The notes under the pieces were generated by a model. That model was not told where the DNA came from and made no database searches. It saw nothing but the letters and a program-made list of their open reading frames with translations. This document shows, in pieces, positions 57,153 through 61,578 of a DNA stretch of 64,000 nucleotides (within the stretch, counting starts at the first letter, position 1; every line of letters begins with the position of its first letter). The position numbers and the translations under genes are program-made. Source of the DNA: Gaiellaceae bacterium (GTDB lineage Bacteria > Actinomycetota > Thermoleophilia > Gaiellales > Gaiellaceae); contig JAUJMY010000002.1 of the NCBI GenBank assembly GCA_030446625.1, positions 124,001 to 188,000 on the forward strand. Reading direction: 5' to 3'.

Positions 57153-57899
57153 ATGAGCGAGGTGCTCTCAGCCGGCCGCCGGGCGCTCCCGCGCGGCTAT
57201 CGCGACCTCGCGCGGCAGCTCGCGATCTGGTTCGGCTTCCTGCTCGCGTACCAGGTCGCGCGCGGCGTCGCGGACCGCGACGCCGCGACGGCGTTCGCAA
57301 ACGGCCTGAAGGTGATCGACCTCGAGCAACGGCTCGGCGCGCTGTTCGAGCTGTGGCTCCAGGGCGTCACGCAGTCGTCGCAACTGCTGATCGCGCTCAC
57401 GTCGTGGACGTACTGGCTGTCGCAGTTCGCGGTCCTCGGCGCGGCGCTGCTTTGGGTCTACCTGCGGCGGAACGACTCGTTCATCCGGTTCCGGAACTCG
57501 ATCCTCGTCGCGAACGTGCTCGGCCTCGTCGGCTACATCGCGGTGCCGACGGCTCCGCCGCGGATGTTCCCGGAGCTCGGCTTCGTCGACACGCTCGCCG
57601 GCCTCGCCGCGCTCAACCACGGGAGCGCCGTGATCGAGATCGCCTCGAACCCGTACGCGGCGATGCCAAGCCTCCACGCCGCAGACTCGCTCCTCGTCGG
57701 CGTGACGATGGCGCTGATCGTCCGCGGTCGCGCCTGGAAGGCGCTCTGGGTCGCGTGGCCGGCGTGGGTGTGGTTGTGCGTGATGGCGACCGGGAATCAC
57801 TTCTGGCTGGACATCGCAGCCGGGATCGGCGTCGCCGGCGTCGCCGCCGCTCTCGTGTACGGGCTTCCGGTGCGGAGGCCGCGCGCGCGGCACGCGTGA
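57153..57899 (+). CDS. PAP2-family phosphatase (AUR1-like), lipid-linked
   Basis: 248 residues with six membrane segments. Active-site blocks are AMPSLHAADSLLVG (SLH in place of PSGH) and CVMATGNHFWLDIAAG (H...D), as in PAP2_3/inositol-phosphorylceramide-synthase-like proteins. It overlaps by 4 bases with a CDP-alcohol phosphatidyltransferase, and Ino1 is close by. A role in dephosphorylating phosphatidylinositol phosphate to phosphatidylinositol is therefore attractive but unproven. Confidence 0.82.
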   Translation: MSEVLSAGRRALPRGYRDLARQLAIWFGFLLAYQVARGVADRDAATAFANGLKVIDLEQRLGALFELWLQGVTQSSQLLIALTSWTYWLSQFAVLGAALLWVYLRRNDSFIRFRNSILVANVLGLVGYIAVPTAPPRMFPELGFVDTLAGLAALNHGSAVIEIASNPYAAMPSLHAADSLLVGVTMALIVRGRAWKALWVAWPAWVWLCVMATGNHFWLDIAAGIGVAGVAAALVYGLPVRRPRARHA

Positions 57900-58525
57900 G
57901 CCGCGCCGCGGCGATCAAGAACAGCTACACGAGCGGAGCGCGCCGCGTCGCCTCGCGCTCGGTCGCGGGGCTCGCGCGGACGCGCCTGAGCCCGGACGCG
58001 CTCACGGCGGGAGGCGTCCTGCTGTGCACAATCGCCGCGGCGCTGATCTACCTCGAGCAACGGAACGAGCTCCTGTACTTCTGGCTCGGCGCCGCGGCCT
58101 TCGTCGCCGGGTCGCTGCTCGACATCCTCGACGGCGCGCTCGCGCGACAGACAGGCAAGGGATCGCCGTTCGGCGCGTTCCTCGACTCGACGACCGACCG
58201 CGTCAGCGAGGGGCTCGTCCTCGCGGCGATCGCGCTCGTCTTCTCGCGTGACGGCAACGAGGTCGCGCTCGCGGTCGCGATCGCCGCGATCGCCGGGTCG
58301 TTCCTCGTCAGCTACACACGGGCGCGCGCGGAGGCGCTCGGCCTGAAGGGCGACGTCGGCATCGGCAGTCGCGCGGAGCGCGTCGTGGTGATCACAGCGG
58401 GACTCCTGCTCGCCCCGTGGGGCTTCCTGCCGTGGGCGATCTACGTCCTGGCCGCAACCGCCTGGTTCACGGTCGCGCAGCGAGTGCTGTCAGTCCGCGC
58501 CCAACTGCACACCCGGGGCGACTAG
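57896..58525 (+). CDS. CDP-alcohol phosphatidyltransferase, probable PIP synthase
   Basis: 209-residue membrane enzyme that joins CDP-diacylglycerol to an alcohol phosphate. The catalytic motif reads DILDGALARQTGKGSPFGAFLDSTTD (DxxDGxxAR...GxxxDxxxD, residues about 79-105). SRAERVVVI near 162 matches the region that positions inositol 1-phosphate in actinobacterial PIP synthases. Its stop at 58525 overlaps the tail of the convergent regulator gene. Together with the PAP2 protein and Ino1 it likely makes phosphatidylinositol. Confidence 0.86.
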   Translation: MSRAAAIKNSYTSGARRVASRSVAGLARTRLSPDALTAGGVLLCTIAAALIYLEQRNELLYFWLGAAAFVAGSLLDILDGALARQTGKGSPFGAFLDSTTDRVSEGLVLAAIALVFSRDGNEVALAVAIAAIAGSFLVSYTRARAEALGLKGDVGIGSRAERVVVITAGLLLAPWGFLPWAIYVLAATAWFTVAQRVLSVRAQLHTRGD

Positions 58526-59159
58526 GCCGCTCTCGTAGGCGAACATCACCGCCTGCACGCGGTCGGGAGGCGGAGCTTCCCGAGCACGTTGCTGACGTGC
58601 GTCTTCGCGGTCGCCTCGCTGACGACGAGAGCCGCTGCGATCTCGGCGTTCGACGCTCCCGTCGCGAGTAGTCGCAACACCTCCGTCTCGCGGTCGGTGA
58701 GCGTGTCGAGCAGCGCCTCGAGGATCCGATCGGACACGGGCCGGCGCGCGAACTCGTCGATGACGCGCCGCGTCACGGCGGGCGCGAGCAGGGCATCGCC
58801 GACCGCGAGCACGCGGATCGCCGCCACGAGCTCCTCGGCGGGCGCGTCCTTCAGCAGGAAGCCGCTGGCGCCGGCTCGGAGGGCGTCGAAGACGTACTCG
58901 TCGAGTCGAATGTCGTGAGCACGAGGATCCGCGTCTCCGTCCGCAGCTCGACGAGCCGTCGCGTCGCCGCGATTCCGTCCAGCTCCGGCATGCGGATGTC
59001 CATCAACGCAACGTCGGGACGGTGCCGCTGCACGGCGGCGACCGCCTCCACGCCGTTCGCGGCCTCCGCTACGACGCGAAGCTCTCGCTCGTCCTCGAGC
59101 AACGACCGCAGTCCCGCGCGCACCATCCCCTGGTCGTCGGCGATGACGACGTCGATCAC
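58490..59159 (-). pseudogene. NarL/LuxR-type response regulator with two frameshifts
   Basis: Receiver domain intact: [39 protein letters not shown] (phospho-acceptor Asp). At about 58905 the frame breaks after LVLTTFD; the next frame continues [21 protein letters not shown] and the [29 protein letters not shown] second break at about 58566 again shifts the C-terminus ([13 protein letters not shown]) to a third frame. Overlaps by 4 bases with its kinase. Two breaks plus a truncated kinase suggest decay. Confidence 0.75.
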
Positions 59160-59851
59160 GGCGCTGCCCCGAGCGGAAGGCGTGCACGCACGCGGAACCC
59201 GCCGCCGTCGCGCGGGCCGGTGGACAGCGTCCCGCCGTACAGCGTGACGCGCTCGTGCATCCCGACCAGCCCGTGCCCTGCATGCCCGTTCCGGCTTGGA
59301 CCCGCGCCGTCGTCCTCGACCTCGACCTCGAGCGCTTCGCCGCCGAACCGCAGCCGGACGGTCGCCCTCGTCGCCCGCGCGTGCCGCCGCACGTTCGTCA
59401 GCGCCTCCTGCACGACGCGGTACGCAGCGAGGTCGACTCCGGGCGTGAGCGGCACGGGCTCGCCGTCCACCTCGAGCTCGACGCGGAGACCCGCGCCGCG
59501 TGTCCGATCGAGCAGCCGACCGAGCTCGCCGAGCCCGGGCTGCGGTGCGAGCGACGGCTCCTCGCCGTCCGCGCGCAGGACGCCGAACAGCCGCCGCAGC
59601 TCGGCCATCGCCTCGCGCGCGGCGGCCTCGACCGCTCGCAGGTCGTCCGCCTCGCGCTCGTGATCGGGCCCGAGGCGGCGGCGCACCGCCTGCGTCTGCA
59701 CGGTGACGACGCTGATCGCGTGCGAGACGATGTCGTGCAGCTCGCGAGCGACCCGCGCGCGCTCGTCGGCGGCCGCCTTCGATGTCTGCCGCTCGCGCTC
59801 GCGCTCCGCCAGCGCGACCAGCTGACCGGCCTGCTCCACGCGCTCGTGCAC
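59156..59851 (-). CDS. Sensor histidine kinase, N-terminally truncated
   Basis: 231 residues from GTG 59851: coiled linker, HisKA_3 box [21 protein letters not shown] (phospho-His), conserved [18 protein letters not shown], and HATPase with [13 protein letters not shown] (N box) and [22 protein letters not shown] (G boxes). The frame stays open upstream to 59953, reading a partial membrane segment (DLVAYAVFYVGPWFVG), then meets a TGA. The usual four to six membrane segments are missing, replaced by the RHH promoter region. Probably a 5'-truncated remnant. Confidence 0.75.
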
Positions 59852-60001
59852 CAGGCGTCCGACGAACCACGGCCCGACGTAGAAGACGGCGTACGCGACG
59901 AGGTCACTCGGGCCGCCCCCTTGGGACGCGAGGAACCCGAACGGACCGAGCGCTCACGTCAGCGTGCTATCACTGCGGCCGCAAACACAAGTCCATGACG
60001 C

Positions 60002-60033
60002 TATAGTGCTATCAGCTCATGGCTGATAGCACT
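60002..60033. promoter_or_regulatory. Promoter and perfect 12-bp-arm palindrome over the RHH-Ino1 start
   Basis: A TATAGT (60002-60007) -10-like box overlaps an inverted repeat AGTGCTATCAGC (60005-60016) / GCTGATAGCACT (60022-60033) with the ATG (60019) in the 5-base spacer. A further half-site GTGCTATCA lies at 59965-59973. Position over the promoter and start codon of a gene beginning with a DNA-binding domain is a classic autoregulatory layout. Confidence 0.7.
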
Positions 60034-61578
60034 GGGAGGAAGACGGTCATCGTGCGCATGCCCCCGCCGCTCAAGCGGCGGGTTGCGCACGAGGTCGAGC
60101 GGCGCGCGAGTGGAATGAACGACGTCCTGCTCTCGATCCTCGCCGAGCGGTTCGGCGTCCCCTTCGCGCCGAGCGGCCGCAGGGGCACGGCGCCCGGCGA
60201 CGGAGGGGTCGTGCTGCTCCGGATGCCGGCCGAGCTGAAGCAGCGTGTCCAGCGCGCCGCGGTCGAGCGCGGCGAGAACGTCAACCGCGTCGTCGTCGCC
60301 GAGCTCGCCGACCACCTCGGCGTCCGGCTCGACCCGCCGCGATCCCAGCAGATCCTCAGAAGGGCCGCGCCGGCAAAGTCGGGACGGCCCCTTGCAACGG
60401 CGTCGCGCGCGACGCCTCGGCGAAAGGAACCTATGGCTTCCAAGAACGGCTCCCGCAACGGCAAGGCCCGCTCGGACGAGCGCGTCCGCGTCGCCGTCAT
60501 CGGCGTCGGCAACTGCGCGAACTCGCTTCTCCAGGGCGTCGAGTACTACAAGGACGCGCCCGACGACCAGTTCGTCCCCGGTCTGATGCACGTGAACCTC
60601 GGCGGCTATCACATCCGCGACATCGAGTTCACCGCCGCGTTCGATGTCACGACGGACAAGGTCGGCAAGGACCTCTCCGAGGCGATCTGGGCGCACCCGA
60701 ACGACACGATCAAGTTCGCGGACGTGAAGAAGACCGGCATCAAGGTCTCGCGCGGGATGACGCACGACGGGATCGGCAAGTACCTCTCCGAGGTCGTCGA
60801 GAAGGCGCCCGGCGAGACGGACGACGTCGTCGGGATCCTCAAGGAGACCGGCACCGACGTCGTCGTCAACTACCTGCCGGTCGGCTCCGAGGCCGCGACG
60901 AAGTGGTACGCGGAGCAGATCCTCGAGGCCGGGTGCGCGATGGTGAACTGCATGCCCGTCTTCATCGCCCGCGAGAACTACTGGCAGAAGCGCTTCGAGG
61001 AGCGCGGCCTGCCGATCATCGGCGACGACATCAAGTCGCAGGTCGGCGCGACGATCACGCACCGCGTCCTGACGAGCCTCTTCCGCGAGCGCGGAGTCAA
61101 GCTCGACCGGACGATGCAGCTGAACGTCGGCGGCAACTCGGACTTCCTGAACATGCTCGAGCGCGAGCGCCTCGAGTCGAAGAAGATCTCGAAGACGAAC
61201 GCGGTCACGTCGATGCTCGACTACGACATGGGCGCGCAGAACGTCCACGTCGGGCCATCGGACCACGTGCCGTGGCTGACCGACCGCAAGTGGGCGTACA
61301 TCCGGCTCGAGGGCTCGTCCTTCGGCGACGTGCCGCTGAACGTCGAACTCAAGCTCGAGGTGTGGGACTCGCCGAACTCGGCCGGGATCGTGATCGACGC
61401 CGTCCGGATGGCGAAGCTGGCACTGAACAACGGAGTCGCGGGCGCCCTCGAGGGCCCGAGCGCGTACCTGATGAAGTCGCCGCCGACGCAGATCGTCGAC
61501 GACGAGGCCTACGAGGCCGTCGAGCGCTTCATCGAGCAGAACGAGCGGAAGCGGGCGAAGGCGGGCGCAGCGGCGTAG
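60019..61578 (+). CDS. ino1: Tandem ribbon-helix-helix domains fused to myo-inositol-1-phosphate synthase
   Basis: 519 residues in one uninterrupted frame. Residues 1-105 hold two RHH-type DNA-binding repeats: [20 protein letters not shown] and [20 protein letters not shown], each followed by an N-x-V/L-L helix. From about residue 139 comes a full actinobacterial Ino1 (NAD motif [17 protein letters not shown], then [58 protein letters not shown]). ATG 60433 (residue 139), preceded by AAAGGAA, could also start Ino1 alone, so two products are possible. Confidence 0.85.

Follow-up and report, generated by a model that had tools for sequence, protein, structure and literature searches.

In the window, a 64,000-nt stretch of DNA from a Gaiellaceae bacterium, a single gene encodes two tandem ribbon-helix-helix (RHH) repeats and the inositol-phosphate synthase Ino1. 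One chain joins a DNA-binding-type domain with a metabolic enzyme, which is the architecture of a trigger enzyme, and the same single frame is present in 35 genomes. Very probably, this gene encodes an inositol-1(3)-phosphate synthase that regulates itself as PutA does; its regulon would consist of a single promoter, and free enzyme would come from an internal start. The gene has the following features:

60019-61578, + strand: RHH-RHH-Ino1 fusion gene, 519 amino acids, an open frame without internal stop
60019, + strand: upstream start ATG of the fusion gene, without a Shine-Dalgarno sequence and 12 nt past the -10-like hexamer
60043-60153, + strand: first RHH repeat, residues 9-45 (strand, helix, helix), from the AlphaFold2 model and an alignment of 23 relatives
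60208-60318, + strand: second RHH repeat, residues 64-100, Arc/HicB-like, from the alignment, Pfam and PDB profile matches and the AlphaFold2 model
60337-60432, + strand: linker coding region, low-confidence residues 107-138 of the model (disorder to residue 151), of differing length among relatives with the frame kept
60424-60428, + strand: internal Shine-Dalgarno sequence AAGGA, 4 nt before the internal start codon at 60433-60435
60433-61578, + strand: internal start ATG and Ino1 coding part, 381 amino acids, the predicted free enzyme; equals the ino1 start of unfused relatives

The fusion protein and its RHH repeats

The initial annotation had read tandem RHH repeats and a complete Ino1 from one frame. 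This reading holds, with an open reading frame of 519 amino acids without a stop and with support from profiles and the structural model. The Ino1 part matched the Pfam family PF01658 (Inos-1-P_synth) at 3e-36, with 124 bits and a gathering cut-off of 27, and aligned over its whole length with the Mycobacterium tuberculosis Ino1 structure 1gr0 (9.6e-149). By homology, it is a complete inositol-phosphate synthase. It is not called as the mycothiol INO1 equivalog TIGR03450: the whole model was covered, with 551 bits for the window protein and a curated cut-off of 638. The PRODH and P5CDH domains that characterise the PutA family were not found in the window protein by Pfam and NCBIfam searches, which detected only Ino1 domains.

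The N-terminal part of the window protein gave only sub-threshold matches in Pfam and NCBIfam (Arc 0.055, below the cut-off). Because this copy alone scores below the threshold, the RHH assignment is based on the relatives, the profile and the model. Among 23 relatives, searched with E-values up to 1, the Pfam profile HicB matched 22, Arc 16 and RHH_1 12, with best E-values of 5.2e-11 for HicB and 8.8e-10 for Arc. In the PDB, the second repeat was closest in sequence to AmrZ, Arc and Mnt. AlphaFold2 placed two strand-helix-helix units at residues 9-45 and 64-100 and modelled the RHH pair with a pTM of 0.73. The best Foldseek matches of the pair were F-plasmid relaxosome chains, followed by AvtR and a permuted single-chain Arc, all with E-values above 0.001. 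Such values are usual for a fold as small as RHH. We take the relaxosome chains to be TraY, which has two RHH units per chain. An arginine and a proline are invariant in both strands among the 23 relatives (R9, P11, R64 and P66 of the aligned block). They presumably fall at the DNA-contacting Arg13 and Pro15 of Arc.

Profiles and model place the N-terminal part in the RHH superfamily (Arc/HicB/CopG-like), with sequence-specific DNA binding as a predicted function, to which the joint occurrence of domain and promoter boxes points indirectly. Since each chain has two RHH units with arginine and proline at the DNA-contact positions of Arc, one chain can, by analogy, form one RHH pseudo-dimer per near-palindromic 8-bp box. 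A similar arrangement is the MetJ dimer, of which one binds per met box.

Distribution and history of the fusion

In-frame RHH-RHH-Ino1 genes were found in 35 Gaiellaceae genomes of 23 genera, including the single-contig genome G017. A six-frame search with a tandem-RHH profile in 299 genomes of the class yielded matches with E<1e-30 in this family alone, and every strong match either continued into Ino1 or was truncated where a contig ended. The same profile gave no further strong matches over 397 genomes of the phylum. Other genera of the family lack the fusion, as do those ino1 loci that were read from the order's remaining families. Among named records, the closest are Candidatus Gaiellasilicea maunaloa (L034) with a fused gene and an uncultured Gaiellaceae bacterium (L035) with an unfused gene.

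Relatives were checked for a stop codon or frameshift between the RHH and Ino1 parts, and none was located between the two. The distance between the parts takes 17 length values in the 35 genomes, all in frame and without a stop; these lengths are multiples of three by construction of the measure, and the real test is the six-frame search for the RHH part only. The openness of the linker was rejected as evidence, as other frames are also open in 28-29 of the 35 cases in this high-GC DNA. Many linker indels, all of them frame-keeping, suggest that selection maintains a fused product. In the five-contig genome G135 (L124, G135:C1:2946300-2948800), the frame breaks inside Ino1, past the join. Either the assembly is wrong here or the gene is broken.

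In the Ino1 tree, fused genes are distributed across the family's deep branches, whereas the unfused ones form about five separate groups; the outgroup is unfused. The six changes between fused and unfused states fit one gain and about five losses, with transfer of the fused gene as an alternative. A separate open reading frame of about 155 amino acids recurs in many genomes of the family (e.g., G000:C23:32302-32430) and has one RHH-like stretch resembling the second repeat. It is a possible source of the fused domain.

Putative operator boxes and neighbouring genes

The promoter of the fusion gene carries short repeated boxes:

59965-59972, + strand: upstream putative operator box TGCTATCA, an exact TGMTAKCA; its 9-mer is found genome-wide only here, at this promoter
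60002-60007, + strand: -10-like hexamer TATAGT, touching the first proximal box; contact between TAnnnT and a box is common in relatives
60007-60014, + strand: proximal putative operator box 1, TGCTATCA, a TGMTAKCA match inside the left palindrome arm (60005-60016)
60024-60031, + strand: proximal putative operator box 2, TGATAGCA, a TGMTAKCA match inside the right arm (60022-60033), over codons 2-5

A palindrome with 12-base arms over the -10-like TATAGT and the start codon had been described earlier and is present in the window. The arms AGTGCTATCAGC (60005-60016) and GCTGATAGCACT (60022-60033) form a perfect inverted repeat, with ATG 60019 in the 5-nt spacer, and the palindrome takes in the second half of the hexamer TATAGT (60002-60007). 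The half-site that had been placed about 40 bases upstream is GTGCTATCA at 59964-59972, 42 bp ahead of the next copy. In the whole 2.71-Mb genome, GTGCTATCA occurs at three places only (two forward, one reverse), all at the ino1 promoter; the reversed control gave 0. As this 9-mer is absent elsewhere in the 2.71 Mb, its restriction to the ino1 promoter lies far beyond chance.

Conservation of the palindrome among relatives was confirmed in part. A motif is kept at the promoter and tracks the RHH part, but the kept unit is the 8-bp TGMTAKCA in at least two copies and not the long palindrome. At least two exact TGMTAKCA boxes within 200 nt before the gene are present at 31 of the 35 fused loci, compared with one box in 61,617 control bases. 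The exceptions are G003 without an exact box and G015, G027 and G183 with one box each. The start-to-start spacing of the boxes is mostly 14-18 bp. In 27 of the 35 fused genomes, the first box and a TAnnnT hexamer share one base, the last of the hexamer and the first of the box (background 0.06% per position); from there to the start codon, the distance is usually 9-13 nt. With a first box that begins on TAnnnT and a start codon 9-13 nt on, the boxes would thus span the end of the -10 element, the presumed start of transcription and the beginning of the coding sequence. Where the boxes form groups of the TGATAGCAC-GTGCTATCA type, no obvious -10 element is adjacent. Such a pair accompanies the fused gene of G302 (L126, genus g19), a genome whose other sampled genus members have no fused copy; within-genus loss, transfer and a misplaced contig are the alternatives. 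In a large subgroup (L007/L119 of G017, L006/L114 of G029 and relatives), the apparent start is a TTG between two boxes, and the second putative operator box doubles as codons for Ala-Ala-Ser-like residues.

Of 18 fused genomes, 16 have exactly one copy of the pair TGCTAGCA-N(5-10)-TGCTAGCA, in each case at the fused ino1. The pair occurred in none of the eight unfused genomes of the same family, and reversed-pattern controls were 0. A sister box-pair pattern was found once each in five more genomes, again at ino1. A trigger enzyme acts on an operator at its own gene. The boxes occur solely at the own promoter, and their operator function is a prediction. Five independent pairs of fused and unfused loci on starred branches were compared: on average, boxes and RHH part change in the same direction in 4.6 of the 5 pairs, and no pair shows the opposite, with a sign test of p = 0.0625, where five pairs cannot reach 0.05. 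In summary, the RHH domain and the boxes appear to have been lost jointly several times. This co-loss marks the RHH part, and not another regulator, as the partner of the boxes.

Two features lie upstream of the promoter:

57893-58525, + strand: CDP-alcohol phosphatidyltransferase, a probable phosphatidylinositol-phosphate synthase (PF01066, 2.7e-17)
58546-59870, - strand: two-component pair (NarL/LuxR-type response regulator and HisKA_3 sensor kinase) that separates the phosphatidyltransferase gene from ino1

In most fused and unfused relatives, tblastn located the phosphatidyltransferase gene directly upstream of ino1. The two genes are close together in nearly all relatives, unlike the interrupted order in the window. 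The actinobacterial phosphatidylinositol-phosphate synthase uses inositol-1-phosphate. By known pathway logic, the pair would make phosphatidylinositol precursors. The start of the kinase gene faces the ino1 promoter, so that the upstream box at 59965 could overlap the promoters of both genes.

Predicted autoregulation and known systems

In the proposed mechanism, the two RHH repeats of one chain would fold as a single-chain pseudo-dimer, comparable to TraY or single-chain Arc, and this tandem-RHH head would recognise the 8-bp box TGMTAKCA. At least two boxes would overlap the -10 region, the presumed start of transcription and the initial codons of the gene itself, where the bound fused enzyme would block the RNA polymerase. 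A rising enzyme level, or a changed state of substrate, cofactor or product, would lower the transcription of ino1. From the same mRNA, a second ribosome-binding site, strong and located where Ino1 originally began, would provide mostly free enzyme, and Ino1 oligomers may contain fused subunits alongside free ones. We infer DNA binding, repression, mixed oligomers and a metabolic signal (NAD, glucose-6-phosphate or inositol state). Repression is read solely from the operator position, as the boxes coincide with the -10 element or follow it.

A coupling of enzyme and DNA is plausible by analogy, because PutA exerts autogenous control of its own gene and switches between repressor and enzyme (PMC5293562), and because myo-inositol is the effector of IpsA, an activator of ino1 (PMC3899939). 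In its fullest form, fused and free subunits, translated from two starts on one mRNA, might form mixed oligomers that bind the promoter via two tandem-RHH heads, the NAD, glucose-6-phosphate or inositol-phosphate state might set the affinity, and no other regulator would be needed. This proposal is tentative. If true, Ino1 gauges its own pathway.

A serious possibility, if short of probable, is a simpler case of the same self-regulation, in which feedback is by dosage, no metabolite is sensed and the enzyme part serves as passenger or oligomerisation scaffold. The predicted regulon of one promoter is consistent with it. The linker is long and disordered, so the enzyme state may be coupled to DNA binding through dosage alone, and the very variable linker length argues against a fixed allosteric coupling. 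For dosage feedback, however, a small separate repressor gene would suffice, yet the single frame survives many indels in 23 genera.

The self-regulating synthase would be accompanied by free enzyme. A second ATG with AAAGGAA at the Ino1 start had been reported for the window and was confirmed: AAAGGAA is located at 60423-60429, 3 nt ahead of the internal ATG at 60433-60435. The internal ATG is kept in 34 of the 35 fused genomes, all 34 with at least four and 32 with at least five Shine-Dalgarno bases. The exception, G274, has a TTG at this position. Control methionine codons inside Ino1 have at least four such bases in 34 of 308 cases and at least five in 2 of 308. At the upstream RHH start, a Shine-Dalgarno sequence was found in none of the 35 fused genomes. 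The protein signature [RG]K[ED]xM at the join is evidently the Shine-Dalgarno sequence read as protein. Because the internal site has a strong Shine-Dalgarno sequence and the RHH start has none, we infer much free enzyme from the internal start and little fused protein from the leaderless or near-leaderless upstream start. The internal ATG corresponds to the ino1 start of unfused relatives, as would be the case if the fused protein alone was made and ATG and Shine-Dalgarno sequence were relics of an unfused ancestor. This is unlikely: both elements are kept in 34 of 35 genomes although the surrounding linker changes in length and sequence, and the upstream start is without a Shine-Dalgarno sequence in every fused genome.

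Even less probable is that the RHH part activates instead of repressing, or that the boxes serve a different regulator. The boxes occupy a repressor position, at the -10 element or past it, and they are confined to genomes with the fused RHH part and vanish with it. Activation would agree with the third box about 42 bp upstream in the window and with the known actinobacterial regulator of ino1, IpsA. The initial annotation rightly named IpsA as a separate regulator of ino1, with the amendment that it is an activator (PMC3899939). A chance in-frame neighbour or an assembly artefact, conceivable in high-GC DNA that leaves other linker frames open in 28-29 of 35 cases, is refuted by the genome comparison, with 35 genomes of 23 genera, including the single-contig G017, and 17 linker lengths, every one in frame.

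Few enzymes carry a repressor domain of their own, and the standard example with RHH is PutA. A literature search found nothing that joins RHH and inositol-(1-)phosphate synthase, and a wider search found nothing relevant. The RHH-autoregulated design is not known for Ino1 and would be new for this enzyme; the PutA-like design itself is already known. The fusion would represent a second, unrelated enzyme with the PutA design, with a single-target operator that is legible from the sequence and a built-in second start that separates the regulator from the plain enzyme. Gaiellaceae are common soil bacteria that are hardly cultured. With a single purified protein and a short DNA fragment, the control of their inositol lipid synthesis becomes directly testable. 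The repeated disappearance of domain and operator together would be a natural experiment on how feedback control is gained and lost.

To our knowledge, Arabidopsis MIPS has no dedicated DNA-binding domain. A gene-regulatory, nuclear moonlighting role has been proposed for this member of the same enzyme class (PMC13210883), in a plant nuclear context and with an unrelated mechanism. IpsA of Corynebacteriales shares with the window system a dedicated transcriptional control of ino1, here predicted, but is a separate LacI-type activator with several targets. Actinobacterial Ino1 (M. tuberculosis, 1gr0; TIGR03450) is homologous across the full Ino1 domain. Unlike the window protein, the M. tuberculosis-type enzyme has no RHH part, and the window protein is not called a mycothiol-type equivalog. 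TraY of the F plasmid, AvtR and single-chain Arc, the best structural matches, also have two RHH units per chain. They have no enzyme domain and function in conjugation, in viral regulation and as an engineered repressor. The trifunctional PutA of the E. coli type shares the N-terminal RHH part fused to a metabolic enzyme and the autogenous control, predicted for Ino1. Ino1 is an unrelated biosynthetic NAD-dependent isomerase, whereas PutA combines proline dehydrogenase and P5C dehydrogenase, without a sequence relation between the enzymes. The window protein has two RHH repeats per chain and PutA one, and, unlike PutA, the window gene has a single predicted target promoter and a conserved internal start for free enzyme. 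By analogy, the fusion would be PutA style by function, not PutA by family.
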